Source: Podocnemis expansa (Eukaryota; Chordata; Testudines; Podocnemididae). From it: 64,000 nucleotides of DNA. Shown here piece after piece: positions 4,831-55,225 of this stretch. Each line of letters opens with the position of its first letter. The first letter of the stretch is position 1. The position numbers and the translations under genes were made by a program. Where the stretch lies: NCBI GenBank assembly GCA_007922195.1, contig ML681994.1:50003018-50067017 (forward strand). The letters are read 5' to 3'. The notes beneath the pieces are model-generated. The model ran no database searches, was not told the DNA's origin, and saw nothing but the letters and a program-made list of their open reading frames with translations.

Positions 4831-5039
4831 CAGGGGTCTCAAACTCAAATCACCACGAGGGCCGCATGAGGACTAATACAGGGCTGCATGAGGATTAGTA
4901 CGTTAGTCCGAGGGCTGCACCACTGAAACCTTTTCATACAATGGTATTGCAAATATCGGTAACAATAGTGTCATCACGGGCCACAGGAAATAGCTTTATG
5001 GGCCGCATGCAGCCCGTGGGTCACGTGTTAGAGACCCTC
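4831..5039 (+). mobile_element. hAT-like MITE, family B copy 1
   Basis: Starts CAGGGGTCTCAAACTCAAAT and ends with a decayed complement near GTGTTAGAGACCCTC. Flanks CTGTAAAT and CTCTAGAT agree at 6 of 8 positions. The interior has GGGCCGCATG blocks typical of small hAT MITEs. The same family lies in opposite orientation at 10102-10288. Confidence 0.7.
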
Positions 5040-5819
5040 CTCTAGATCAATTGAGTGCATCTTGACAGGCTGCTCAATCGAATCCAAAAGAACGAACTGA
5101 CAGCAGCATATTTGCTGCCATCAGTGTAGACATGCCTTTAGAAGAAACTGAAGCAGGTGAAACTAACTTCCCCTTTTATAGCCTCACAACTCAACATGAG
5201 AGAAGGAGAAGGGTAAGTGACCCACACTGATACTGCTCTGTATTCCTAAGATACTGCTGAGATTCTGGAAGCTCATGATGCAGCTGCCTTGGCTCCACAA
5301 GCACGTAGCAACCACTTGAACTGGCAGTTGCTCTGGGGCTAAGTATCACTGCATGAAAAAATGTAAGATCAACATATCATCATAACACACAATCCGCTGT
5401 TTCATAACTAAAATATGGGAAGAATACTTTCTTTTAAATGTCCATTTCTATTGTCTGTCAGCAAACAATTTGAATCTGACAAAACTAACTACTGCTTTAG
5501 AGCAGTAAACTGACTATATCTGGAATGCTGGAAAAAATTCTATTTCAAAGTTCATGTGGATTCACAATCATTTAAGTTTTTCATTAAAAAAACCTTATTT
5601 ATCATTTCAATACAAATAAAATAAACTCATATTTCTGTGAAATGACAAGTTAGCTCTCCCCCCACCCCCGCCAATTGTCTTTACTTGTTATAAGATTGAA
5701 AAACTAAGGAGACAAGAGCAGGGTGATTTGGTTGGGCTGAATGCCAAGTTAGAAAAGAGTTCTGTTTACAAAAGTTAACATATTCACAGTACTAGCCAGG
5801 AATTAAGTGACAATGTGGG
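5040..5819. other. No recognisable gene
   Basis: AT-rich sequence between a hAT MITE and the CR1 copy. I see no coding signal. Confidence 0.35.
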
Positions 5820-8800
5820 AGACCTGGGGGAAGGGATGGAACTTGGGTGGAACGGGGACTGTAACACCAGGGATAAAAGAGAGGGTAGCTAGAACATGGG
5901 GGGCAATCAAATAATCATGTTACATGTTCTAATGAAGCTTTAATACCTGAGGCAGGTGCAGGAGGACAATTCCAGGAGAAAATACAAGGAGGTAGATGTA
6001 ATAGTACTGAAAATTGACTTGGGAAAGTAGGGCAATCAGCCTGGTATCTTAGGTGCCTGTACACAAATGCAAGGAGCCTGGGAAACAAGCAGGAAGAATT
6101 GGTAGTACTGGCACAGACAAGGAACTATGATATAATTGAAATAACAAAGACATGGTGGGATAGCTTGCATGACTGGAGCTCTGCCATGGATGGGTATAAG
6201 TTGTTCAGGAAGGACAGGCAGGGAAGAAAAGGGGAAAGAGTAGTGCTATATGTAAAAGAGCCATATGACTGCTCAGAGCTCCATTATGGAAGGGGAACCA
6301 AGCCAGCTGAAAATCTGTGGGTTAAGCTTAGAGGAGAGAGCAACAAGCGGGATGTTGTGGTGGGTGTCTTCTATAGACCTCCAGACCAGAAGGAGGAAGT
6401 GGATGAAGCATTCTATGGACAACTGGCAGTTTCTAGATCACAGGACCTGGTTCTCATGGGGGACTTCAATTACCCTTACATCTGCGAGGAGGCCAATACA
6501 GCGGTGCACAGGCAATCCAGGAAGTTTCTGGAGAGTGTTGAGGACAACCTTCCTGGTACAAATGCTGGAGGAACCAACTAGGGGCCTTGCACCTCTTGAC
6601 CTGCTGCTCATAGACAGAGAAGAATTGTCTGGGGACATAGAAGTGAATGGCAACCTGGGCAGCAGTGACCATGAGATGGTAAAGTTCAAGATGGTGATTA
6701 ATGGAAAAAAGGAAAGAAGCAAAATGCAGACCCTGGACTTCAGAAAAGCAGATTTTGGCTCCCTCAAGGAACTGATGAGCAGGATCCCTTGGGAGGCTGA
6801 TCTGAAGGGGAAAGGTATCCAAGAGAGCTGGTTGCATTTTAAAGAAACCCTGCTAAAGGCACAGGAAGATACCATTCTGATGAGCAGGAAGAACAGCAAA
6901 TGTAGAAGGCACCCAGTGTGGCTTAACAGAGAACTCTGCACTGAGCTAAAGCACAAAAAGGAAGCTTACAGGAAGTGGAAGCTTGGACAGATAACTAAGG
7001 AGGCATATAAAGATATTGCTTGGGACTGCAGGGATAAAATCAGAAAGGCCAAAGGACAATTGGATTTGCGGCTAGCAAGAGATGTGAAGGATAACAGGAA
7101 GAGGTTCTACATGTATGTCAATAACAAGAAGAGGATCAGGGCTGGTGTAGGTCCCTTACTGAATAGCGCAGGTATCCTCATGATGAAGGATGAGGAAAAG
7201 GCTGAAGTGCTCAATGCTTTTTTACTTCAGTTTTCACAGACAGGGCCAGCTCCCAGCCCACTACACTGGGCATGGCAGATTGGAGAGAAGAAGAGAGGCC
7301 GTTGGTGACAGAAGGTCAGGTTAGGGACTTCCTAAAAAAGCTGGATGTCCACAAGTCCATAGGGCCGGACAACCTGCATCCAAGGATGCTGAGGGAGTTG
7401 GCCGATGAGATAGCAGTACCGCTGGCCATTATCTTTGAAAACTCGTGGCAAACGGGAGAGGTGCTGGAGGACTGGAAAAAAGCAAATATAGTGCCTATCT
7501 TGAAGAAAGGCTAAAAGGAGGATCCAGGGAATTACAGACCTGTCAGCCTCACCGCAATCCCTAGAAAAATCATGGAGCAGATTCTGAAAGAATCCATCCT
7601 GAAACACTTGGAGGAAAATAGAGTGATCAGGAACAGTCAGCATGGATTCACCAAGGGTAAGTCATGCCTGACCAACCTCATCGCCTTCTATGATGAGATG
7701 ACTGGATTTGTGGATGCAGGAAGAGCTGTTGATGTGATATACCTTGACATTAGCAAGGCTTTTGATATGGTTTCCCACAGCATTCTCATCAGCAAGTTAA
7801 GGAAGTATAGGCTGGATTTGTGGACTGTAAGGTGGATAGAAAACTGGCTACATCAACGATTTCAGCGTGTAGGAATCAATGGCTCCATGTCTAGTTGGCA
7901 ACCAGTAACGAGTGGTGTATCCCAGGGGTCAGTCCTGGGGCCAGTTCTGTTCAATATTTTCATTAAAGATCTGGATGATGGGATTTATTGCACACTCAGT
8001 AAGTTTGCGGATGACACCAAGCTGGGGGGAATGGTAGACATGCTGGAGGCCCGGGAGAAGATTCAGGAAGACCTTGACAAATTGGAGCAGTGGGCCAATA
8101 GAAATCTCAAGAGGTTCAACAAGGACAAGTTCAGAGTCCTGCATTTGGGACGGAAAAACCCCATGCACTGCTACAGGCTGGGGAGCGATCAGCTAAGTAA
8201 CAGCACCATAGAAAGGGACCTGGGGGTCCTGGGGCATGGGAAGCTGGATATGAGTCAGCAGTGTGCTCTTGCTGCCAAAAAGACCAATGGCATACTGGGC
8301 TGCATCAGAAGAAGCATTGACAGCAGATTGAGGGACGTGATCATTCCCCTCTATTCTGCACTGGTGAGGCCACATCTGGAATACTGTGTCCAGTTTTGGG
8401 CTCCCCACTACTAAAAGGACGTGGACAAATTAGAAAGAGTCCAGCGGAGGGCAACAAAAATGATCAAGGGGCTGGAGCACAAGCCCTATGAAGAAAAATA
8501 GAAGGAACTAGGCTTATTTAGCCTACAGAAGAGACGACTGAGGGGGGATTTGATAGCAACTTTCAACTACCTGAAGGGATGCTCCAAGGAGGATGGAGCT
8601 CGACTGTTCTCAGTTGTAACAGAGAATAGAACAAGGAGCAATGGTTTCAAGTTGCAGCTGGGGAGGTCGTGGCTGGATATTAGAAAAAACTTTCTTATAG
8701 GAGGGTGGTAAAGCATTGGAATGGGCTACCTAGGGAGGTGGTTGAATCTCCGTCTTTGGAGATGTTTAAGGTCCAGCTGGAGAAAACTCGAGCTGGAATA

Positions 8801-8887
8801 ATTTAGTGGGAGTGGTCTTGCTTTTTTTGGCAGGGGTTTGGACTAGATGACCTCATGATGTCCCTTCCAACACTCTGATTCTATGAA
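5820..8887 (+). mobile_element. CR1 LINE, 5'-truncated, long ORF2
   Basis: A non-LTR retrotransposon of the CR1 clade. The endonuclease domain begins near 6065 (TNARSLGNKQEELVVL) and includes the MGDFNYP motif near 6460. The reading then shifts frame near 6560 for the linker to about 7230, and shifts back for the reverse transcriptase. One stop (7512) interrupts the RT just before the NYRPVSL motif. From 7572 to 8414 an uninterrupted 280-codon stretch holds motif A (YLDISKAFD), SQGSVLGP and the catalytic FADD box. Further stops lie at 8412 and 8500. The 3' end (GGACTAGATGACCTC, then TCTGATTCTATGAATTC) is the CR1 tail. ORF1 is absent. It cannot make a full protein, so it is inactive, though not very old. 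Confidence 0.9.
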
Positions 8888-9133: not shown

Positions 9134-10575
9134 CTGAGTATAATGACCACATACGTTAGTGCACTTGCCAGTCTGAAAATCATAGTTCTTGACTTCACTG
9201 TTCCAACTTTTGATGGCTTTAGCAGCATCAAATATTTGGTAACTTCCAGTCCAGATATTCTCTCCAACAGGCACATAATGAGGATGGGACATAAATTTTT
9301 TCTTTAAATATGGACTATGTTTAAAAAGGCATTTATTGGCCCATGCCCTGGCAGTCCGTGCTAAAGCTGCATCCCAGGTCTGCAAAATAATAAAATTGAA
9401 GAATTTGTATTAAGATTTAAATTGCAATGGCATTTGTGTCCATCAGACAAACTAAAGTAGAAATTAAAAGCCTGCTGCTATAAATTGAAATGGATTTAAA
9501 TTGTCTGTGACTTCTGTAAAATTCTGTCAAATAAATATTTTGTCCCCCTTCTGTCACTTGGCCAAGCACTCCAAAAATCCTGGTTTTAGTTACAGATGAA
9601 CTTTAGGGTAGCATTACAGAGTTACTCACAGAAGAGAGACGAGTGAATGAATGATTATTGGATCCAGAGCTGTAACTATGGCAGGGCCAACATGGCAAAG
9701 CCCTGGGTGGTGTGGAGCAGCTGAGCCGCTGTATTAAAGGCTGGCTTGTGTGGGGCCGGGTCCAAGCACTGCTAATGGCAAGGGGTGCGTTCCGATTGAA
9801 ACATGGCCCGGGTGGCAAAAAATAGTGTTATGGCTCTGACTGGATCAACTTCTGCTGGTGGCAGAAACAAGCTTTCAAGCCTCCATGGAGCTATTTGTCA
9901 GGCCTGGAAAACGTACGCAGCAGGGCTGGTGCTACCTGGTAAGCCGGGTAAGCGTTGCAGGGTGGCGCCAATGTTTGAGGGGCACCAAAAGGGGACAGCA
10001 CCCTTGTGCTCCTCTGATCATGTCACTCATCTGCGCTGGCGTTGCTGTGCTCCCAGGGGCCCCCACAAACCCAAACACTGTGCCTGGTACTCAGGATATG
10101 TCAGGGGTCTCAAATGCATGTCCCGCAGGCCCCTTGTGGCTGTAAAGCTATTTCCCGCAGCCCACAATGACGCTGTTGTTACAGAAATTTGCAATATCGT
10201 TGTACGAAAAGGTTTCAGTGGTGCAGCCCTCGGGCTAAGGTACTAGTCTTCATGCGGCCCTCATAGTGATTTGAGTTTGAGGCCCCTGGAGTATGTGTTG
10301 GTGGGACGGACGGACAGACAGACCCCTGCCACCAGCCGCTGGCGCTTGCCCCGTGGGGCCGCAGTCAGGCCATCAGCCCCCCACCCTACCATGTAGCGCA
10401 TGTTGGCGGCGGCCGGCTGCACGGCGGCGCGGTGCGTGTTGTGTTGCCGGACGCAGGCGTCGATGAAGGTGCGGTTGGTGATGCGGGGCAGAGCCGGCCT
10501 GGCCCTCCCGCGCTGAGGGCGGCACACGCCCGCCAGAACCGCCAGCGCCAGCGCCGCCGGCAGCCACAGCCGCAT
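9134..10575 (-). CDS. GLIPR1: GLIPR1-like CAP-domain secreted/membrane protein, exons 1-2 (partial)
   Basis: Two coding exons on the minus strand: 10575-10390 (62 codons) and 9379-9134 (82 codons). Both junctions are phase 0, with donors GTAGGG and GTAATG and acceptor TTTTGCAG. Exon 1 has a signal peptide (about residues 1-18, MRLWLPAALALAVLAGVC) and the start of the CAP domain (FIDACVRQHNTHR). Exon 2 carries the core: a WDAALARTARAWANKC helix, the GENIWTG motif and the CGHYTQ signature, so the CAP His and Glu residues are kept. The wording is closer to GLIPR1 than to GLIPR1L1/2. CAP proteins of this family are exported and often membrane-tethered; a molecular activity cannot be inferred. The start was chosen because it begins the signal peptide, inside a CpG island. 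Exons 3 onward (the part after YTQ) were not found in 1-9133; they may lie beyond the left edge or be too diverged for me to see. Confidence 0.8.
9380..10101. other. Intron 1 of GLIPR1-like gene, repeat-derived in part
   Basis: Intron sequence. From about 9920 (GGGCTGGTGCTACCTGGTAAG) it resembles the left end of a larger hAT-like family also seen at 27966, but I cannot place its right end. No extra exon is seen. Confidence 0.4.
10102..10288 (-). mobile_element. hAT-like MITE, family B copy 2
   Basis: Ends CAGGGGTCTCAAA and TTTGAGTTTGAGGCCCCTG, in opposite orientation to the copy at 4831. Flanks GGATATGT and GAGTATGT agree at 6 of 8. It sits in intron 1 of the GLIPR1-like gene, about 100 bp from exon 1. 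Confidence 0.75.
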
Positions 10576-10780
10576 GGCGCCGCCTCCCTCAGCCGCACTG
10601 CGGGTCGGGGTGAGCCGGGCTGCCTCGTGCTCCAACGGCTGCCCGCGCCCTCGCGCCCAACGGTCGCCGAAACTGACTCCCGGGCCCAGCCCCGCCCCCG
10701 CCCCTCAGACACCGCGCTGCCTGCCCGCCTCCCCTCCGCTCCCTGCTCCCTCCAGCCGCACGGTGTGCTGCCGGGCCCTG
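10300..10780. promoter_or_regulatory. CpG island over GLIPR1-like exon 1
   Basis: Dense CG dinucleotides cover the first coding exon and the 200 bp upstream of it (minus-strand sense). This marks the likely promoter. No TATA box is evident. The minisatellite begins directly upstream. Confidence 0.65.
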
Positions 10781-10784
10781 CACC

Positions 10785-11459
10785 GCTATGCCCCTTCCCC
10801 GTCCGCGAGAGAGACAGACACGGTGTCGTTGTCGTGCCCGTGCCCTACCCGGCTATGCCCCTTCCCTGACAGACAGACAGACACGGTGTCCTGACCGCTC
10901 CCTACAGGGCTATGGCCCTTCCCCTGACAGGAAAACACGCAAGCCAACCCGGTGTTCCGAACGGGCCCCGACCCGCTTATCCCCTTCCCCTGACAGACAG
11001 ACAGACACGGTGTCCTGACCAGGCCCTACAGGGCTATGCCCCTTCCCCTGACAGACAGACACACAGACAGACACGGTGTCCTGACCGGGCCCTGCACCGC
11101 TATGCCCCTTCCCCTGACAGACAGACAGACACGGTGTCCTGACCAGGCCCTACAGGGCTATGCCCCTTCCCCTGACAGACAGACAGACACGGTGTGCTGC
11201 CGGGCCCTGCACCGCTATGCCCCTTCCCCTGACAGACAGACAGACACGGTGTCCTGACCGGGCCCTACAGGGCTATGCCCCTTCCCTGACAGACAGACAG
11301 ACACGGTGTCCTGACCGGGCCCTACACGGCTATGCTCCTTCCCTGACAGACAGACAGACACGGTGTCCTGACCGGGCCCTACACAGCTATGCCCCTTCCC
11401 TGACAGACAGACAGACACAGTGTGCTGACCGCGCCCTACACAGCTATGCCCCTTCCCCT

Positions 11460-11491
<32 letters not shown>

Positions 11492-11876
11492 CAGTGTGCT
11501 GACCGGGCCTTACAGAGCTATGCCCCTTCCCCTGACAGACAGACACACACACTGTACCAACTTGGCCCTACAGAGCTATGCCCCTTTGACAGGCAGACAG
11601 ACAGACACAGTGAACTGACTGGACCCTAGAGAGCTATGCCTATGCCCCTTACGCAGACAGACAGACATACACTATACTGACTGGGCCCTACAGAGCTATG
11701 CCCATTCCGCAGACAGACAGACACTGTACCATCTTGGCGCTACAGAGCTATGCCCCTTCTCCAGACAGACAGACACACACACTGTACCGACTTGGCCCTA
11801 CAGGGTTATGCCCCTTCCCAAGATAGACAGACAGACAGACACACGGTGTACTGACTGGGCCCTACAGAGCTGTGCA
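10785..11876. repeat. 57-58 bp minisatellite with internal CAGA runs
   Basis: About 17 units of a 57-58 bp repeat. Each contains GCTATGCCCCTTCCCCTGAC, then three to seven CAGA steps, then CACGGTGTCCTGACC. Successive ATGCCCC positions at 11102, 11160, 11217, 11275, 11332, 11390 and 11447 show the period. The left part is most uniform; units right of 11500 are more variable (ACTGTACC replaces GGTGTCC). It lies just upstream of the GLIPR1-like promoter. Repetitive open frames in all phases are artefacts of the period. Confidence 0.9.
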
Positions 11877-13744: not shown

Positions 13745-14203
13745 TACAAATGAACAAGGAATCCTGTAGCACTTAAAGACTAACAAATATATTCATTGCG
13801 TGAGCTTTCAGGGGAGAAAATTCCACTTCATCAGATGCTTTGAAGACTGCGGAATTTACAGGATGGGAGGAAATAAATGCAGGGAAGTATAAGTCATGGA
13901 AACAGGTCGCACTGTAACAGCAAATCAAAACAGTTGTAAAGATTCAAACACCGGAGAACAATATACAGAGGGAGATGAGGTCAAATCACCTGTTGTAATG
14001 AGAGAAAAATCCAATGTCTTTATTAAGTCCTGAAGCAATGCAACTGAATTTGCAAATAAATTCAATTTCAGTAGCCTCTCCTTGAAGCTTTGATTTAGTA
14101 TTCATCTGTGTGGCACAGCAGTTAGCAAATCGTTAATGAAGTGATCAGGAAGATTGAAATGCTGGCCCACTGGTTTTAGAGTGTTGGGATTTCTGATTTT
14201 GCC
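13745..14203 (-). mobile_element. Penelope-like element 3' fragment
   Basis: The minus strand reads the C-terminal part of a Penelope-like ORF, in broken frames, equivalent to GQHFNLPYHSINNL and then ...NRDVGF. It ends in the family tail (ACTCCTTGT preceded by GCACTTAAAGACTAAC in plus-strand sense). It is the same subfamily as the plus-strand copy at 17206. Confidence 0.7.
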
Positions 14204-23972: not shown

Positions 23973-24081
23973 ACATAGTGTGGTGGCTAGCACCTCTGCT
24001 TAACATGTGGAAGGTCCTGGGTTCAATTCCCAGGGGATTGGACTCTATGATCTCATGAGGTCCCTTCCAGCCCGATGATAT
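23973..24081 (+). mobile_element. tRNA-derived SINE adjoining the CCDC107-like CpG island
   Basis: tRNA-like head with A box TGGCTAGCACC (23984-23994) and B box GGTTCAATTCC (24020-24030). The anticodon-loop position reads CTTAACA, which fits a tRNA-Val(AAC) origin. The tail GGATTGGACTCTATGATCTC to CCAGCCCGATGAT resembles the CR1 3' end at 8846-8880. It ends about 200 bp before the start codon of the next gene. Confidence 0.8.
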
Positions 24082-24084
24082 AGA

Positions 24085-24560
24085 GGGCATTACGGCGCCC
24101 ATCGGCCTCGTGCAGGGGTTTGCAGCGAGAGGCGGGTGGGGAGTCGCGAGCCAGGTCCCGCTGGGCGCAGAGGAGGCTGGAGCCCGCACGGGGGCGCCAC
24201 CGGCGGGGCGGAGGAAGCGGCCGGGGGCTGGGCCGCGCCTTGTCGCGAGCTCGGCGGCTCCGTCGTTGCCGCTGGCGGCCGGCCCGGCCATGGCGGTGTG
24301 GGCGCTGCAGCAGTGCGCGGTCTCTGTCGTGCTGCTGCTCTGCCTCTTCGTGGCCGCGCCCAGGCTGTTCGGGGCAGGCGGCGGAGGAGCCGGGCCGGCC
24401 CTGCGGAGGGGCGACGCCGGCCGCGCTCGCTCCGATCCCTCCCCGCTCCCCGCAGGTACGGACCGGCCTCGCCCCCGCCTTTCTGCGCGGGGAGGCCGGG
24501 GTGGGCCTCGTTCTTCCTCCCTAGGCCGGCTGGGCTGGGCTCCGGGGAGCAGGCACCCCC
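24085..24560. promoter_or_regulatory. CpG island promoter of the CCDC107-like gene
   Basis: Dense CG dinucleotides surround exon 1 (24290-24455). No TATA box is seen. The island begins where the SINE ends. Confidence 0.7.
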
Positions 24561-30500: not shown

Positions 30501-33500
30501 ATGGGCGTACAGATGCTTCCTGTATTTATTAAGAGTTGGCTTTAAATGCAAAATTTATCTTGATAAGTGTTTTTCTTGCATATTTAGTGAATTTAAGGTA
30601 GTTTTATTTAACTAATAAAAACAACCTCCATTTTAAAGTTGCCTTTAATTTAATTCCGATTTCCCATCTACATGCAACTTGACAAAAAGATCACAAGTAA
30701 CAACACATGGATCATTTAGTATGATGTTGTGCCATTTTTTAACATAATAAAAATGTAAAAATTAAGAATCTGAATAAGTCTGTTTAAATTATATAATTAT
30801 ATATATATTGGTTAGCAAAAGAAGTAACACCACCAAATGTAGAGTAATGGCTGTATTTAATTGCAGATCAAGATAATATGCCAGTCAGTGAGATTCCACC
30901 TATCTTTAGAATGAGATAAAAAAAGTACAAATGGGGGTTGGGGTGGAGGGGGATTAAAATTCTTTATTTAAACAGAGATTTTCTACTTGCTTACATAAAT
31001 CATGACAACAAGTGAGGAATTAAATAAATCCATCCTGATGGGATCTGACCCATAGTTCATGTGCATAATGAACTGGTGCAAGTGCTTTGGTATAGTACAG
31101 TGGAAAGTAAAATCATCACCTGGTGGCGCTGTTCCCACTTGTTTTGTTCCCTATATCAATTCAGAAAATACCCAAACTCTGACCCATCGGTAAAGTAACG
31201 TCTTCACACATGTTGGATGTTTGTTGGTAACTCATGCTGCCACTTTTCCCATTTTTTTATTCGTGCAAAAGAAGACAGAAGAAGGTGCAAAAGCTTGCCA
31301 AAAGGAGCTGAAGCTAATATGTCATGAGGACTACCAGACATGAATTGATCCAAACAAATTCTAAGCATGTAGAAATTTTTATATACATTGTTTTAAAAAA
31401 ATAGAAAATAAGAAATTAAAACAATTTCAGGGTTTGAAAGTTGGGCTGTCAAATGATTAAAAAAAATCCCAATTAATTTTGAGATTAAAATAATCACAAT
31501 GAACTGCACTTCAAGCATACTCTTAATAGATTAACAATTTAATTTATAAATATTTTGGATGTTTGTCAAAAAGTGAACATTTGAATCTAGTTGCAGGGAA
31601 AAGACTCCAAACCTTTATATTTTGCAATTCTAGACTAAGGTATCTAATGTGAGAAAACTATCTCAGATGTTTTAGAACCATCAAAACCACCTTCCACCAA
31701 ATGGAATTCAATTTAATAATCTTTCAGTTGTGAGAAAATTGCAATGTCTTTTTATTTCATGGTTGATTTTTATTAGTAGCAACTTGGCATTGCTATCTTG
31801 ATGTAAGATAGTACCAGGGAATATTCTTTTTTTCAAGTACAGTGTTTGCTGCTTTGTCAAGTGATATTGAATGAAACAAGGCTCACACCTCTGGAGAAAT
31901 TAAGGCAGATTGCTCAAAAGGCAACAGATTATGTCCCTAGGTTAGAAACTTTTGGCAGAACTAGTAAGCTTACTATTATTCATGTGAAAGAACTGATGTA
32001 AATTATGTTCTTCATTATTCTCACTCAAAATCCTCAGCAGGATTGGTTTTTTGAAGGATATTAGAAGTTGTGACTGAGCTAGCACCTCAGCTAAGAAATA
32101 TGTTTTAAGTTGCTTATTATCTGGGGAGTGAGGGGAACAGTGCAGTCTGAAACTTCAGAATTTTCATCTTATGGGTGTGTATTTGTTAGCTATGTGCAGC
32201 TTGCTAAAATTTCATTTGCCATTTTCTGGGCATTATTCTTATGTGGGAAGTGAACTTTTCATGCTTCAATACTATTTTTGCCTCCCCTCAATTCAAGTGT
32301 GTTACATTTTTGAAACTTAAGATTCCTTGTTGATTTAATTGTCAGTAGGACATCTTAAATTAGACATAGAGAGAGCCTATCTAGAAATTATTATAAAGTA
32401 TTTGGAAAATGTGTACAGCAGATGTGTAATGTTATATTTGACTTTTCCATTAAATATTTAACTCTACTGAGCTATGACACTCTACATAGGTGTAAGATCA
32501 TTCAGAACAACACTGATCCTACAGCTAAACCCTATATTTTACATAGGCTAAACCTGGTTATTTCAGTGATTTGTTTCTTGCACAGACAGGGCAACATTAA
32601 ATTTTTGTTTGTAAAAGCAGATAAAAATTTTCATTTCAACATTAGTGGAAGAAATAGTGAGAGTTTGATGCTAATAGTGAAAAGCAGTTTCAGCAAGTTT
32701 GAATTAAATGCCAGATTGCTATTTGAATTTTGATTTCAGTGTGTTACTGGTTATATTCAACTTAGCTTCAGTTTGCAATTATTTTGCTAAATTACCTCCA
32801 TTAGTAAGGAAGAAATCTTCCTGATAAATTGTACTGCGTTTTATTTCGTAGCTATGAAGAAAAAGAGAATCTTAGTTTGAGATTTTTTTTTTAATGTACA
32901 TTTTATTGTGCATATGTGCAAGGCTGGCCTGTTGTAACCTTGGGTGTGTGTGTTCTGGAACAGCTTTCAGGTGACATTAATATTAAAGAAATCGTGAACC
33001 TAAAAGAAGGAAAAATCTCAGGACTGTTTCATTTTGAAAGTAATTAGAATAGAATAGAGTCATAGGGTTGGAAGGGACCACATGAGATCATCAAGTCTGA
33101 CCCTGGGCTTGAACCCAGGGCTTGAACCCAGGACCTTCTGCATATTAAGCAGAGGTGCTAGCTACTACACTATTTAATTATATGGCTAAAGTTTATTTTA
33201 AAATATTTAATTTTGCAGGTGGGTCTAAGAGAGTTGATCAGTCTCCTCTGAATTCAGGAAGTTCTGAAAGTAAAACATACCAGAGCTTTCAGCAGATGAG
33301 GAATGCAGTGGAGAAGGACAGGAAGAGTGAGAGAGCTAAAGGACGTGGTAAAGACTTCGCTCTTATCCTCATGCCCTTGTATGCTATTGGTGTGGGAGTG
33401 TTTGCAGCATACAAATTCCTAAAGGTAAATATTAACTATAAATCTCTCAATCGTGGAAGTGAGAGATGGCAAAGGCCTAACAGGCCATTTATTTCTCCCT

Positions 33501-36500
33501 TGCTCTTCTGAAGTGCGTACAGTGTAAATGAGATGAAAGTCAAAACTGGTCAGCATGACAAGAAGTCAGAACACAACAACTGCCTGACTGCTTTTGAGGT
33601 TTCTTCTGTGGGTATCCTGACAGAGAAGAGTTTTAGGGAGGATGAGGTGGTTCTGTGGGTGTTTATGGGGAGCCTCTTCCCATGCATGAAGAGCAATATG
33701 CGAGAGAGCATGAAGGTACTTGTTCGTAACATGCTTGCTTGATTTACAAATACTAGTGTCCTTGTCAGAACAGATTGCTACCTTGATGTATATAGGAGAT
33801 AATAAGGAAGAACAGGAGTTGAAGGGCCTTTAAAAGTGAAGATGAGTAGCTTTTTTTTTTGTTTGTTTGTTTTTTGTTTTTGCTGTAAGGAAAGGGAGGA
33901 ATGTAAAGAGAGATGACATAGTTTTATATATACATTTCGTTATGCTTGGCCTGTTTTTTGGCAGCCTTTGCAATAAATTGTCTGATTCTGAAGAGTGTAG
34001 TTTTTAGTGAGAGTACATGAAAAAATAAAATAGCTTTATTTTATATAATGCTTCTCTTTATATTTTATATAAAGCAACAAAACACGAGGTGTACTAGCAA
34101 AATTAGAATGTTTTGGAAAAATGTTTCATGGATGTTATTTCACAGACTTTAAAGTGTCACTTTTGTCAAAAAATTTGGGTAGTTTCAGTGAGAGCTTTGC
34201 TGTTTTTGACATAGCTTAGTTCAAGGAGTCAGTGGGATCAGGGGTGAATGAAAAAGAACATTACAATGTAAATGGCTGTAACTTTTAATACATTTTAGAA
34301 ACCTTATTTAAGCACATGTCATCTAAAATGCATGCTGAGCTATTATGTTGGCTGAAGTGTAACTTTACTGTTTTTTATAGATGAAATCTAAAGAAGGAAG
34401 TTCTTCCAAGAAAGAGAAAAATACAGAAGATAAGGCAAAAGAAACAGGCAAGGCATAAGTTCAGAACATGCATAATCACAAAATGCAGTATTCCTTCTAC
34501 AGTAAAACAATATGTATTCATTAATTATGTTGCCAAACAAAATCCAATACTTAGTTTATTAAAATGCTTTAAGGAACATTAGCAAGGCTATTAAGTTTAA
34601 AACTAGGTGCTTGGGCACATGATAATGTGGTCGTAAAAATGTGGGGCTGGAAGGGACTCAAAGCAATTGTCTAGCCCACCCTCTGTGTTAAGGCTGCACC
34701 AAGTTTGTCCAATCTTTTCTTAGAAGCCTCTAGCAAGGATTCTGCAACCTCTCTTGAAATCCTGTTTCAGAGCTTAACTATCCTTTGAGTGAAAGGTTTT
34801 TTTCTTAATATCCAACCTACATCTCCACTGCTTCAGATTATGCGAATTACTCCCTGTCTTGCCTTGAGTGGACATGGAGAACAATTTTTATATGCACAGG
34901 CACTCCAAAGTTTTATAGAGAAGGGGTTACTTTATTTTACTTTAATGTATACTCAGCCAAAAACATAATTGACTTTTATTCCTTTGCTACCACTTCATAG
35001 TGAAAACTTGTGTCTAATACGCAGTCTTCTCTTTTAGAACATCAGCTTTTGGAACTGGAGCAGCATCTAGCACAGACGGAGAAAATGTTAAATTCTTTAT
35101 TGACTCAGTTAGACCCCCTGTCAAACTGGTGAGTAATTTCACAGTTTATGCCTTGCATAAAATTGTACTAATTGCCTTCTAACTGTTTAGGTAGTCTGAG
35201 AAATCATATTTCTGAGGTGAGAGGTACTGAGAAGCCTAGTTTGTAACATTTGCATACTGCTCTACAGACAGTAGCTAACTGCAGATTTAAACAGGCAGTC
35301 CTACATACAGCGCCCGTGTTCCCATATAAAGATGAGCACTATAGTAATAGGGGTAATGTTGTGAAGCGGTATTCCTCTTCAAGTGCTTGTTCATGACGCC
35401 CATTGCAGTGGAGGGGTGTGCATCCCCTGAGCACTGCCAGTTGAAAGATTTTTCCCTCAGCGGTAGTGCTGGATTTAGGCGCAAGCCCAAGTAAGCCATG
35501 GCTGAAGGCCTCACATTAGGGCAGGGGTACTCAAAAGGCGGCCCGCGGTCCACAATGCGGACCGCAAAGACCTTTCCTGTGGACCGCGACAGCAGGGGCG
35601 TCACTGGGGCGGGGAGAGACCCAGGGCACGGGCCCTGCCCCCGCCCCCAGAGGGCAGGCCCCACCCCCCAGCCAGAAGGGCACGCCCCCTGGCTTGGGAT
35701 ACAGCCGGGGGAGGCCGCACCGCTGCTGGCAGCTAGGCCGCGGCGCGGCGTGGCGCAGCCCGGCCTGGCCCAGCACGGCCCGCCATGCCGCACAGCTTCA
35801 AGCCTGGAGACCTGGTCTTCACCAAGATGAAAGGGTACCTGCACTGGCTGGCCCGGGTGAGCCCCAGCCCAGCCTGCCTGGGGGCTGCCCTGCCCCTGCC
35901 CCTGCCCCTGCCCCTGCCCCTGCCCCGCGCTGAGGGCGGGGTCTGAGTGTTGAGGAGCTGGGATGCTCCGGGTCATGGGGTGCTGGGGTGGGTGGTGGGG
36001 TGGTTGTTGGGGAAATGGGGTGCAAGGGTGGCTGTTGGCAGAGGTGGGGTGCAGGGGGTAATGGGTCATGAGGTGCTGGGGTGGGTGGTGGGGAAATGGG
36101 GTGCACGGGCGGATGTTGGCAGAGGTAGGGTGCAGGGTGTAATGGGTCACGAGGTGCTGGGGTGGGAGCTAGAGTGTGATGGGGTGTCAGGAGATGGTCC
36201 CGTATTGTGGGGTGCAGAGATGGGTGTTGGAAGAGATGGAGTGAAGAGGGAGAAGATGATGGATTGTGGGGAACAGGGTTGTGGAGAGATGAGGTGAGGA
36301 AAGGGATATGGATTGGGGCAAGAGGACATCAGGGATGACAGTTGGCAGCTGGGGTGGTCGGGTGTGTGTTTTTTTTTGGTTTGGTTTTTTTTTTTTGACA
36401 AAGTTCAAATGTCTTGGTCAAGGTAGGCGAAGGTCCAAATTCAAGAGAAAGCAATCCAAAAAAAGTAAAGAAATAAAAAGAGGTTGGGGTCTGTTCAAAA

Positions 36501-39207
36501 GCACCTGGTGGTCTCGATTTGGCCAGCAGTCTGCATATTGATGGTCTCAGGGATGGGTGAGAGGGGAGGTTCAAGGTACAGGATCCGGGGTGGGGGAGCA
36601 GGATGAATCTCAGCATGGGAGTTGTCCTATGTCGTTGAGAGTTCAAATCAAATCAAATCATAGGGCTGGAAGGGACCTCATGAGATCATCAAGTCCAACG
36701 CCCTGGGAATTGAACCCAGGACCTTCTGCATGTTAAGCAGAGGTGCTAGCCACTAGTTACTGGCTTGTGATTAAGTTCCAGAGGGGGTAGCCGTAGTACT
36801 CTAGTTAAGCAAAAGAAACAAGGAGTCCTATTCCCCAGTGTTTGAATCTAAATTAGTGCATTGATTTGCTGTAACAGTCTGACCTGATCCTATGACTTAC
36901 ACTTCCTTGCATTTATTTTTCTCCCATTCTGTAAGTTCCCCCATCTTCAAAGCATCTGATGAAGTTTGATTTTTCTCCCATGAAAGCTCACGAGATAGAT
37001 AAATTTGTTAGGCTTTAAAAATGCCACAGGACTCCTTGTTGGTTTGGCTTGTTGTTGGGTGTCAGGGGTGGTAGTAACTGCATTGTGATACGTTTGTGTG
37101 GTGTGGCTAAAGTGCTTGGAGAGGGTATGTATGAGACACACAGTACGATGGTATCTGTTGGGGACGGTGTCAAGTGACAGTTCCTGGAGGGGGTGGGGGT
37201 ATATTGGGTATTACTGATGACTGGGAGCGGTCATGGTGTGTGGGGCATACTGTGTGGGTGAGAGTGCATTGGGTAGTGTTCCTGAAAAGTAAAGATGGTA
37301 GAGACCCTAGGGCAGGGGTACTCAAATGGTGGCCCGCGGTCCACAATCTGGACCGCAAAGACCTTTCTGGTGGACTGCGACAACAGGGGCGTTGCTGGGG
37401 CGGGGAGGGACCCAGGGCACGGGCCCTGCCCCCAGCCAGAAGGCCACGCCCCCTGGCTCGGGATAGGGACCCCGATGAATGGTGGAAGGCTGAATGTGGA
37501 CCTGCTCACAAAAAGTTTGAGTACCCCTGCATTAGGGGGAGCCTCTAGAAATGTTGGAAATAACTAAAATTTATCATAATTGAAATTGATAATGTAAATA
37601 AGGCTTTTTGCAAGCTGTGTTTTTTATTTAGTTTTTTTGTTGCAGCTTTGCCTATGTATATATGCAAATATAATGGTTTATCATTTATTTTTTCATTACC
37701 CTTTCAGTGATAATGTAATACACTTTCTTCTCTTTTTTCTTTTTAATGGTATGGAGCCTCTGACTCTCGAGATAGCTTAGGGCCTCATCATGTCTTGGAT
37801 TCCGCCAAACAGGGCTGGATTTATCATGTCGACTCTGGCACCCTCTGGGATTGCGCCTGTTCATAATGCTGGTGTATAGGACCCTCCTGACCTGAATCCC
37901 CTTGTGTTCGTTTTTAGTGCCTGTAATGTTTTCCCAAGTTCTTATTCAGACAAGGCTGTCTAGAATAGTTTTCCTTGTTAATTTCTTCTTTCACGGGGCA
38001 CTTCTTCAGCTGGCACACCCATTGGAAAAATTAAGTCATGAAATCATCCAGCAACTCTATTTCAATTATGATGTGTCCTCTTTTCCTCTCAGTCATCAGG
38101 GAAATGACTTTTGAAAACTTCCCAACAATCTGATTTTTTTTTTTTTTTTTTTTTAATTTTTAAGTTACATATCCGACCATGATAATAGCAATTTACCTGA
38201 AAAAACAGTTCAGTCTAATCTAGAGTCAGAATAATATTTGCAGTGCAGTTTGGGCCAAGTATTCATTTTCAATAGTAGCTTACATGAACCTTCAGCTGTT
38301 TCTGTTTCTCTTCATTTCAGTGTTAATGCACTGGCTTGTGAACAGAAAGATGAAATAATGACACAGCTTCAGTCCATTAGACAGCTGATGAAGGAAAGTG
38401 GATTGGATAAATCAAATATGAACCTAAAAGGTACTTTAATATTCAGTCAATGTTGTAGATCCTCATTACAGTAAAAATCACTGTTGTGCTTATTTGAGTT
38501 GTAAAGAATTTAATGTTCTGTTCATACATCTTGGATGCAATATGTTTCTCGCTTGGAGACTGGTGGATACCAGAAAGTATTTTAAAATCCTATTTTTTGC
38601 TACTATTAGTAGCCTACAAATGTAGCAGCTCACTTCTTGCTTCCAGTGTACCTAGTTTACAAATCGAGATGCTGGCTCTTAAGAGATGAGAACACGGCAC
38701 AGTTGTACTAGAATACACTGCTGCAGTTAGAGCCAGAAATCACCTGCTGCTTTATTAGTGAGACTGGAATTTTGTGAATGTATCATGATCTACTAAGCTC
38801 AAACAGTTGTTTAATGTATTAGTAAGACTTTTTTGAAAAAAATAAAACAGACATCTAAACATGACTTCTGAAACTGAGAACCCTATCACTAATCTTAAAT
38901 CTCTTTTTTTTTTTTTTTTTTAAATTAAGATGTTAATCACACATGTAATGAGAAACTTGAAGATCTCATTCAATCACTTGGCCAACAGGCTAAGGAAAAA
39001 ACACATGACAATGAAGATCGTGGTATGGAAGATCTGCTTGAAGATACTGATAATCATTATGAAAAGGAAGAGGATGAATTGTGTGATGATGAATTCACAC
39101 TTAGTCAGCTGATTGAGCCAAAGGTGATAGAAGTTCAAAAAATAATAGACAGACAGACACTGGAACTGGAGGAGACTGAATTAAGGAGGCGTAATAGATA
39201 TGAATGA
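24290..39207 (+). CDS. CCDC107: CCDC107/RIC3-type membrane coiled-coil protein, six exons, 305 aa
   Basis: Exons: 24290-24455, 33219-33424, 34381-34447, 35038-35128, 38321-38430, 38930-39207; phases are consistent throughout and total 918 nt with stop. All introns are GT-AG except intron 3, whose donor is GC (CAG then GCAAGG). Residues 5-29 are a signal anchor or signal peptide ([14 protein letters not shown]). Residues 101-124 are the RIC3-type membrane segment ([20 protein letters not shown]). Residues 147-172 are a coiled coil ([20 protein letters not shown]). A second helical region ([14 protein letters not shown]) and an acidic C-terminus follow. The LAQTE..LN.L..QLDPL phrase matches CCDC107 as I recall it. 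RIC3 relatives assist receptor folding in the ER; CCDC107 itself has no settled function. Position beside GLIPR1 is not that of human CCDC107, so a paralog is possible. ATG chosen because it starts the hydrophobic segment in the CpG island. Confidence 0.82.
24911..25475. mobile_element. MITE with CAGTGTAGACATGGCC-type ends
   Basis: Left GGCACGTCTGCACTGCAAAG, right CTCTGCAGTGTAGACATGGCC are inverted; ATTG flanks both sides. The interior is full of TTTTTTCAAAAA and TGAAAAAA words that pair with one another. It lies in intron 1. Confidence 0.65.
25476..26709. other. Intron 1 sequence
   Basis: No exon seen. A 65-bp piece at 26161-26225 (GTTCCAGAGAGGTAGCCCTA) is a minus-strand Penelope tail chip. 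Confidence 0.45.
26710..26896. mobile_element. hAT-like MITE, family D copy 1
   Basis: Left CAGGGGTGGACAAACTTATG, right CAGTTTGGCCACACCTG. Flanks CTGTAGAA and TTACAGAA agree at 5 of 8. It has GAGCCACAC repeats inside. Same family as 59953-60497. Confidence 0.65.
26897..27965. other. Intron 1 sequence
   Basis: AT-rich, no supported exon. An open frame at 27675-27926 has no splice context or family match. Confidence 0.4.
27966..28255. mobile_element. hAT-like fragment, GC-rich
   Basis: Starts CTGGGCCGGTCCGCCCATAG and runs through a GC-rich interior. A similar left end lies near 9920. The right end is not identified. Confidence 0.45.
28256..29639. other. Intron 1 sequence
   Basis: No exon signals. 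Purine-rich text around 28690-29400 reads like decayed retroelement spacer, but nothing can be assigned. Confidence 0.35.
29640..29773. mobile_element. Fragment of a MITE ending in GTGTAAACATACCCTAA
   Basis: The right end TATTGCAGTGTAAACATACC resembles the (A)GTGTAGACAT termini of other MITEs in the window. The left part is missing. Confidence 0.45.
29774..33046. other. Intron 1 sequence
   Basis: AT-rich, low complexity in places, no exon seen. An ORF at 32422-32733 has no splice sites that would fit the gene. Confidence 0.4.
33047..33172 (-). mobile_element. tRNA-derived SINE 46 bp upstream of exon 2
   Basis: Minus-strand copy. The B-box region is duplicated in tandem (GGGCTTGAACCCA twice at 33104-33131). 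The tail is AATAG-type. It ends only 46 bp before the exon 2 start at 33219, so it borders the branch-point region of intron 1. Confidence 0.8.
33425..34380. other. Intron 2
   Basis: Bounded by donor GTAAAT and acceptor TTTTTTATAG. No repeat terminus or extra exon identified; poly-T run near 33851. Confidence 0.5.
34448..34449 (+). promoter_or_regulatory. GC splice donor of intron 3
   Basis: Exon 3 must end at 34447 for the frame to join exon 4 (ACA G / AA CAT CAG). The donor context is ACAG then GCAAGG, close to the GC-AG consensus. No GT in the vicinity keeps the frame. Reading through gives Gly-Lys-Ala and then a stop (TAA at 34457). Confidence 0.75.
34634..34900 (-). mobile_element. CR1 3' fragment, minus strand
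   Basis: The minus strand reads the decayed end of CR1 ORF2 (equivalents of LFS...[15 protein letters not shown]) and a GGAAGGGACT-type 3' region in plus-strand sense. It lies in intron 3. Confidence 0.65.
35129..35521. other. Intron 4, left part
   Basis: No exon. It ends with the CATTAGGG target copy (35514-35521) of the composite element. Confidence 0.5.
35785..35856 (+). pseudogene. Captured first coding exon of an HDGF-family gene (HDGFL2-like)
   Basis: ATG at 35785 opens 24 codons beginning [18 protein letters not shown] and ending LHWLAR, directly followed by a GTGAGC donor at 35857. This is the start of the PWWP domain of HDGF relatives. HDGFL2 begins [20 protein letters not shown] by my recall, and these genes break their first coding exon after PAR. 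Both expected Pro codons in the PHWPAR phrase are Leu (CCG to CTG type changes) and the Ala before Lys is Thr. The upstream 80 bp are CpG-rich, like a promoter. Because the splice donor and flanking non-coding DNA are present, it came from genomic DNA, not from an mRNA. Exon 2 of the PWWP domain is absent, so no functional protein is expected. Confidence 0.75.
35940..36330. repeat. Degenerate minisatellite inside the composite element
   Basis: Units near 95 bp repeat GGTGCTGGGGTGGGTGGTGG, GGGGAAATGGGGTGCA and TGTTGGCAGAGGTGGG. At least two good units and decayed flanks. It probably came with the captured intron. Confidence 0.65.
36645..36756 (-). mobile_element. tRNA-derived SINE
   Basis: Minus-strand copy with tail (CAAAT)n at 36645-36660, the CR1-like segment ATAGGGCTGGAAGGGACCTC and the inverted B box GAATTGAACCCAGG. 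It lies inside the composite element. Confidence 0.8.
36770..37047 (+). mobile_element. Penelope-like 3' fragment with short inverted head
   Basis: About 60 bp of tail in minus orientation (GTTCCAGAGGGGGTAGCCGT to AAGGAGTCC) is joined directly to about 210 bp of the tail region in plus orientation ending ACAGGACTCCTTGTTGG. Confidence 0.65.
37313..37529 (+). mobile_element. Complete short hAT-like element, right end of the composite
   Basis: Ends CAGGGGTACTCAAA and TTTGAGTACCCCTG are perfect 14-bp inverted repeats. The left flank CCCTAGGG is not the same as the right flank CATTAGGG, although 6 of 8 agree; this fits the idea that its original right flank was left behind when the composite moved. 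Confidence 0.75.
37530..38320. other. Intron 4, right part
   Basis: No exon; poly-T at 38132. Acceptor TTCATTTCAG at 38320. Confidence 0.5.
38431..38929. other. Intron 5
   Basis: Donor GTACTT and acceptor AAATTAAG after a long T run. Nothing else supported. Confidence 0.55.
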
Positions 39208-54724: not shown

Positions 54725-55225
54725 AAAACAACAAGGAGTTGTGTGGCACTTTAAGACTAACAGATTTATCTTTTGCATGAGCTTTCGTGGGAGAAGATCC
54801 TACTTCCTAATCACTTGATGATGTTAATGACTGTTGTTAGAGATGTACCTGGGACATCAAGACTTCAAAGAGAAACAGCTGAACTCGAATTAATATGCAA
54901 GCTAAATTCTGTGAAAGCAGGACTTAATTGAGACTATCAGTTCTTTTCCCATTACAAAGGGTAATTTGACTTCAGGCTTCCCATGGTTTGAGCCTGAAAA
55001 CTGCTCTGATTTGCTGTTACTTTATGACCTGATCCTATGTTTTACACCCCCTTGCATTTAGTTTCATTCCTTTCTGTAAGTTCACCCATCTTCGAAGCAT
55101 CTGAGGAAGTGGGATCTTCTCCCACAAAAGCTCATGCAAAAAATAAATCTGTTAGTCTTAAAGTGCCACACAACTCCTTGTTGTTTTTTTTTTACTGGAC
55201 TAGACTAACACGGCTATCCCTTTTG
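54725..55225 (+). mobile_element. Penelope-like 3' fragment with inverted head
   Basis: About 90 bp of tail in minus orientation (AACAAGGAGTTGTGTGGCAC) is joined to about 410 bp in plus orientation, with TSRLQRETAELELICKLN-type coding remnant and the tail ending CACAACTCCTTGTTG and CTAACACGGCTATCCC. Confidence 0.75.

Follow-up and report, generated by a model that had tools for sequence, protein, structure and literature searches.

The stretch of DNA analysed here (the window; 64,000 nucleotides from the turtle Podocnemis expansa) contains a gene whose coding parts, at 24290-24455, 33219-33424, 34381-34447, 35038-35128 and 38321-38430, join in frame into a product of 213 residues. This product matches CCDC107: a protein search gave 404 matches with E <= 0.001, of which the best 120 of the 404 were listed. 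Four of the seven top-scoring matches are from the turtles Gopherus, Lepidochelys, Pelodiscus and Carettochelys, with 75-81% identity over the whole query; the other three are P0121 (89%), P0122 (82%) and P0124 (84%). Among the matches listed, identity is 65-69% to Alligator and 63% to Crocodylus, and some birds reach 80-91%, though they score lower and the match covers just 50-76% of the query. A crocodilian origin of the DNA is disfavoured by these values. Exon 2 encodes a RIC3 family domain (E = 2.6e-13). Intron 3, which follows the exon at 34381-34447, appears to begin with a GC donor (ACAG/GCAAGG), consistent with the frame and with the protein relatives.

Intron 4 of CCDC107 (35129-38320) contains a hAT-type block of 2,008 bp (35522-37529), in which a segment of 1,611 bp, two nested repeats included, lies between two hAT copies. 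A sequence-only reading had placed the insertion in the fourth intron of a host gene, and that gene can now be named. The features run as follows (a point marks features without strand):

35038..35128, +, CCDC107 exon 4, upstream of the insertion (reading frame and protein matches)
35514..35521,., left target-site duplication CATTAGGG (letters read and flank test)
35522..35701, +, the left hAT copy, of which the first 180 bp remain, starting CAGGGGTACTCAAA and lacking the right end (aligned to the right copy)
35702..35784, +, 83 bp leading up to the ATG, which would be 5' UTR or proximal promoter of HDGFL2 (position before the exon)
35785..35856, +, copy of HDGFL2 exon 1 (24 codons), altered at three conserved PWWP residues (protein comparison)
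35857..36645, +, GTGAGC as splice donor, then what would be HDGFL2 intron 1
35991-36166, G-rich tandem repeat with an 81-bp unit, within the presumed intron 1
36646..36755, -, first nested repeat, of a dispersed kind, within the presumed intron 1 (copies elsewhere in the window)
36807..37050,., second nested repeat, bounded by inverted ends of 23 nt (inverted pair and copies in the window)
37051..37304, +, remainder of the presumed HDGFL2 intron 1 (bounded by the nested repeats on one side and the inner copy on the other)
37305..37312,., CCCTAGGG, directly to the left of the inner hAT and probably one half of an older target duplication of that copy (TA at positions 4-5)
37313..37529, +, right hAT copy, 217 bp, with both ends, its right end being that of the block (letters and alignment)
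37530..37537,., right target-site duplication CATTAGGG (letters read and flank test)
38321..38430, +, CCDC107 exon 5, downstream of the insertion (reading frame and protein matches)

The left end of the block, CAGGGGTACTCAAA at 35522-35535, returns as its exact inverse at 37516-37529 (14/14 bp), and the flanks of the block are identical (8/8), CATTAGGG standing on both sides; hAT-type ends and a perfect 8-bp flank had both been claimed from the letters, and both hold. The question of whether such an agreement might arise by chance was addressed with all hAT-like end pairs of the whole window (CAGRGK plus an inverse-type end, separated by 100-4,000 bp; n = 1,104). Identical 8-bp flanks occur in a single one of these 1,104 pairs, which is the 2,008-bp block with its 14 of 14 matching end bases, and no such pair was seen in any of 19 controls in which the right flank was shifted by 3-57 bp. 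A looser scan of exact 14-mer inverted pairs at most 3 kb apart found equal 8-bp flanks in 2 of 344, one being the block and the other lying inside a longer inverted repeat. With up to 3 mismatches allowed, the 14-mer end has 8 matches in the window against 8.41 expected, so that only its three exact matches are informative. Terminal inverted repeats of 5-27 bp and a size below 4 kb are characters of hAT elements that the block shares (14/14 exact; 2,008 bp). The definition of the superfamily includes a target-site duplication of 8 bp, as described in the source consulted in part (PMC3517528), and the block has one in CATTAGGG, 8/8. An exact match to the 27-base hAT end was found in neither viral_contigs nor genome_contigs, as expected for a turtle element. 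The inverted pair at 55098/56646 was considered as a second hAT and rejected: it connects one copy of the second nested repeat (36807-37050 type) with another, and since CTTCGAAG, its flank, equals its own inverse, longer inverted arms are the preferred reading of the pair.

The left 180 bp align with positions 1-153 of the 217-bp right copy at 140/153 identical bases with one 27-bp gap, which bears out the earlier statement that the left end repeats the start of the right-end element, and the alignment also shows that both copies point in the same direction. The two differ at 13 of 153 sites (9 of the 13 being transitions) and by the 27 bp, and are therefore distinct copies. The left one is broken off sharply at 35701, a single junction inside the element, and is without its last ~64 bp; the right one would be a complete member of the family, judging from its two ends. 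The search of the window gave no further full copy, and the family is therefore known here from two copies only. The layout expected of a macrotransposon, two linked elements in direct orientation within one target duplication, is thus present, with the left element truncated.

To its left the right copy has CCCTAGGG and not the CATTAGGG of the outer duplication. TA, which makes up 5.4% of the dinucleotides in the window, occupies positions 4-5 in either sequence, and both agree with the target site nnnTAnnn given for Buster-type hATs in the portions of the source consulted (PMC3517528); the agreement concerns two sites only. Since the inner flank is unlike the outer one and both are TA-centred, the right copy was probably once inserted separately in the captured segment; these two sites suggest that it had an older insertion site of its own, and the different flank of a copy that is whole suggests that it arrived together with the donor DNA.

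The origin of the captured segment is clearest in its exon. Among PDB entries it matches HDGFL2 (HDGF-related protein 2) best (E = 2.8e-10), ahead of PSIP1 (7.4e-8), and 21 of the 24 residues are identical to those of turtle HDGFL2 in P0286 (Natator) and P0288 (Emydura), whose first 24 residues are the same; identity to P0285 (Carettochelys) is 20/24. An HDGF-family start exon with an intact donor had been proposed, and the exon, directly followed by GTGAGC, confirms it. Relative to P0286 and P0288 the replacements are A13T, P19L and P22L. A13, P19 and P22 stand in an unbroken motif in 119 of 120 HDGFL2 proteins (the best 120 of 904 with E <= 0.001), the sole exception among those listed being P0304, in which one residue is missing at position 13. 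In a second set (293 proteins with E <= 0.001, best 120 listed), 62 of the 120 passed an ungapped match of at least 10/17 residues and 58 were excluded; among the 62 retained, A13 is present in 61, P19 in 58 and P22 in 62. The present codons at positions 13, 19 and 22 are ACC, CTG and CTG, each apparently one transition away from its likely parental codon. Such transitions are the expected outcome of the decay of methylated CpG.

The 24-residue exon by itself gave no match in Pfam, and tblastn with two turtle HDGFL2 proteins found no other part of this gene in the window. Intron-like DNA follows the intact donor, so that a retrocopy of HDGFL2 is disfavoured, and the non-coding middle of the block would likewise be HDGFL2 DNA, the parent having been identified at the level of protein. 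Two further statements of the sequence-only reading need to be restricted. A CpG-rich segment between the hATs is present at 35702-35860 (GC 0.72; CpG observed/expected 0.67, against 0.30 for the window), but the ratio falls to 0.23 at 35861-36340, so that the CpG-rich stretch is short. Capture of a promoter is unproven, since just 83 bp precede the ATG.

The intron part contains two repeats. That at 36646..36755, which we take to be a CR1-tailed tRNA-type SINE, has matches of 82-95% identity in the window at 23983, 33060, 49889 and 59053 (the last partial), with an additional partial match at 8831-8880 (84%). The second recurs, over 36831-37046, at 13747, 14245, 19046, 54980 and 56570 with 75-81% identity.

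Given these observations, we read the block as a Pack-hAT, a non-autonomous hAT bearing a fragment of another gene, and give its formation by gap repair roughly an even chance. A hAT of ~244 bp would have inserted in CCDC107 intron 4, duplicating CATTAGGG, while a second copy of the family would have sat in HDGFL2 intron 1, flanked by CCCTAGGG. A break at about position 180 of the CCDC107 element may then have allowed its right part to pair with the copy in HDGFL2 intron 1; repair synthesis would have proceeded leftwards, copying first that hAT, then intron 1 with exon 1 and finally the 5' UTR, and the new end would have been joined to the left stump. Both the events and their order are reconstructed, and they lead to the order observed: left hAT 1-180, HDGFL2, whole right hAT. 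We count in favour of gap repair the sharp break of the left copy and the whole right copy with its different, hAT-like flank, and further the outer ends (14/14) with their duplication (8/8), the distinctness of the copies and the loss of conserved residues in exon 1. For primate Pack-TIRs, the parts of the animal survey consulted report that in 91 of 97 cases outgroups have the element undisturbed at the orthologous position, as gap filling predicts, and consider gap filling the source of most single-copy Pack-TIRs (PMC8277862). Two points count against it. According to the same portions of the survey, gap-filling donors are mostly near, 160 of 281 within 15 kb (PMC8277862), and in Carettochelys CCDC107 (P0127) is on a contig of 383.1 Mb and HDGFL2 (P0285) on one of 17.3 Mb; the donor was therefore probably on another chromosome. 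The insert, at 1,611 bp with its nested repeats, is also long against the median of 224 bp reported there (PMC8277862).

The distant donor is easier to accommodate if the whole block moved at once, as the sequence-only reading supposed: same-direction hATs, the left one truncated, would have lain around HDGFL2 exon 1, and transposase acting on their outermost ends would have carried the 2 kb into CCDC107 intron 4. The same-direction copies, the intact outer ends, the perfect new duplication and the older flank of the inner copy all fit, and such moves are documented for maize Ac/Ds, likewise hAT, in the parts of the reports compared (PMC3260210, PMC4270019, PMC9910405). This composite history requires, however, that the HDGFL2 ATG had a hAT remnant ending 83 bp upstream of it, or that a deletion brought one so near, and also that the left copy lost its right end. 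By our count it takes two insertions, that loss and a move, whereas gap repair takes two insertions and one repair; gap repair, being one step shorter, is favoured, and we regard the composite history as possible but the less probable of the two. Both predict a hAT in HDGFL2 intron 1.

Template switching at HDGFL2 during replication (FoSTeST) might also have built the chimera, which would then have been excised and inserted into CCDC107. The model was put forward for multicopy Pack-TIRs with distant donors, in the sections of the survey consulted (PMC8277862), and it is compatible with both the distant donor and the new duplication; the block is known here from one copy, however, and we think this origin improbable.

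Whether the captured CpG-rich exon might serve CCDC107 as a putative alternative first exon is a separate question. It lies on the same strand as CCDC107, its ATG and donor are intact, and transcribed Pack-TIRs frequently form chimeras with their hosts, as the portions of the survey compared report (PMC8277862). When spliced to CCDC107 exon 5, however, it gives 25 residues and then a stop, three conserved residues have been lost and the CpG-rich part is short. A functional captured exon is disfavoured by the replacements A13T, P19L and P22L and by that stop, and a role for the exon in the host appears very improbable; exon and donor are most likely relics in a decaying fragment, and the block today is probably an inert intronic insertion. 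That unrelated hAT pieces happen to surround a duplicated HDGFL2 fragment, or that the assembly was misjoined, is hardly credible: the block is known from a single assembly, but one pair in 1,104 and none in 19 controls argue against chance, and matching ends with a duplication are not expected from a misjoin.

Pack-TIRs are recognised in the survey, in the sections compared, by flanks that are parts of one TIR element, with at least 10 bp of its ends covered (PMC8277862). The alignment of the left and right hATs shows flanks of this kind in the block. The survey also asks for non-TE DNA inside, 100-5,000 bp long and of known parentage, and the block has 1,611 bp inside with two nested repeats, its parent being matched by protein alone. 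The block is a clear example of a type of gene capture already known in vertebrates, and the novelty that the sequence-only reading saw in a vertebrate hAT case was overstated. Tan et al. (2021) report, in the parts of their survey consulted, that 100 animal genomes, of which 81 are vertebrate, yielded 370 Pack-TIRs, 208 of these elements being hAT; the frog element hAT-N8_XT carries the CAPSL 5' UTR and has three target duplications, and the count for the American alligator, all kinds taken together, is 38 (PMC8277862). Animal hAT Pack-TIRs described there share with the turtle block non-TE DNA between parts of one TIR element, a target duplication and a gene-derived insert of 100-5,000 bp (PMC8277862); the turtle block differs from them in that its right part consists of an entire second copy, which has a flank of its own. 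We have not seen a different inner flank on the whole copy described in the literature compared.

Ac/Ds macrotransposons in maize were reportedly described by Huang and Dooner in 2008 with elements in direct orientation. They share with the turtle block linked hATs whose outer ends act as a unit and an 8-bp duplication or footprint, in the portions of the reports compared (PMC4270019, PMC9910405); they were demonstrated by active transposition, whereas the block is a fossil known from its insertion site alone. Gene fragments are described in maize Ds elements, and the compound Ds-like hAT element Ds-l4-483 (2011) shows the turtle arrangement in mirror image: a whole copy is followed by trapped foreign DNA, part of it a transcribed sequence originating on another chromosome, and then by a truncated copy, and the target duplication encloses them all, as far as the source was compared (PMC3260210). 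It differs in being from a plant, in its 7,344 bp and in its whole copy, which is flanked by the target duplication with an additional copy of it at the far end (PMC3260210), whereas the inner flank of the turtle whole copy, CCCTAGGG, is unlike the outer duplication. In the titles and abstract starts of the records listed, our literature search found no published turtle transposon carrying HDGFL2, and its match for a vertebrate composite hAT with direct-orientation copies concerns Kolobok elements instead.

The block is an unusually legible vertebrate Pack-hAT, since one can see in it the gene of origin and the host gene, the target duplication, and two hAT copies that can be told apart; with these parts visible, gap repair and joint transposition predict opposite outcomes at the two loci. 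The survey pipeline, in the sections consulted, dropped cases with TEs within 100 bp of the parental copy (PMC8277862), so that the layout of the turtle block may be under-sampled, and the block points to a class, a parental gene linked to a hAT, that was left out (PMC8277862). Tentatively, and against our own preference, a natural vertebrate hAT macrotransposon may have carried a host first exon and splice donor as a unit between chromosomes; if so, the macrotransposon layout, filtered from the Pack-TIR survey by design to judge from those sections, may be common and uncounted.

Rfam gave no match anywhere in the window. Outside the block, exons of a CAP-family gene, which we take to be GLIPR1-like, lie on the minus strand at 9134-10575; that at 9134-9379 matches Pfam CAP (E = 2.2e-8), and the presumed first exon at 10393-10575, which has no Pfam match, is adjoined by a minisatellite (10759-11875; unit ~57 bp, some 17 copies). 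A long LINE-like stretch, presumably of CR1 type, was spotted by eye at about 5820-8880. Two more hAT-like sequences, at about 4831-5045 and 10102-10290, both start CAGGGGTCTCAAA and by eye look like a family different from that of the hATs in the block.
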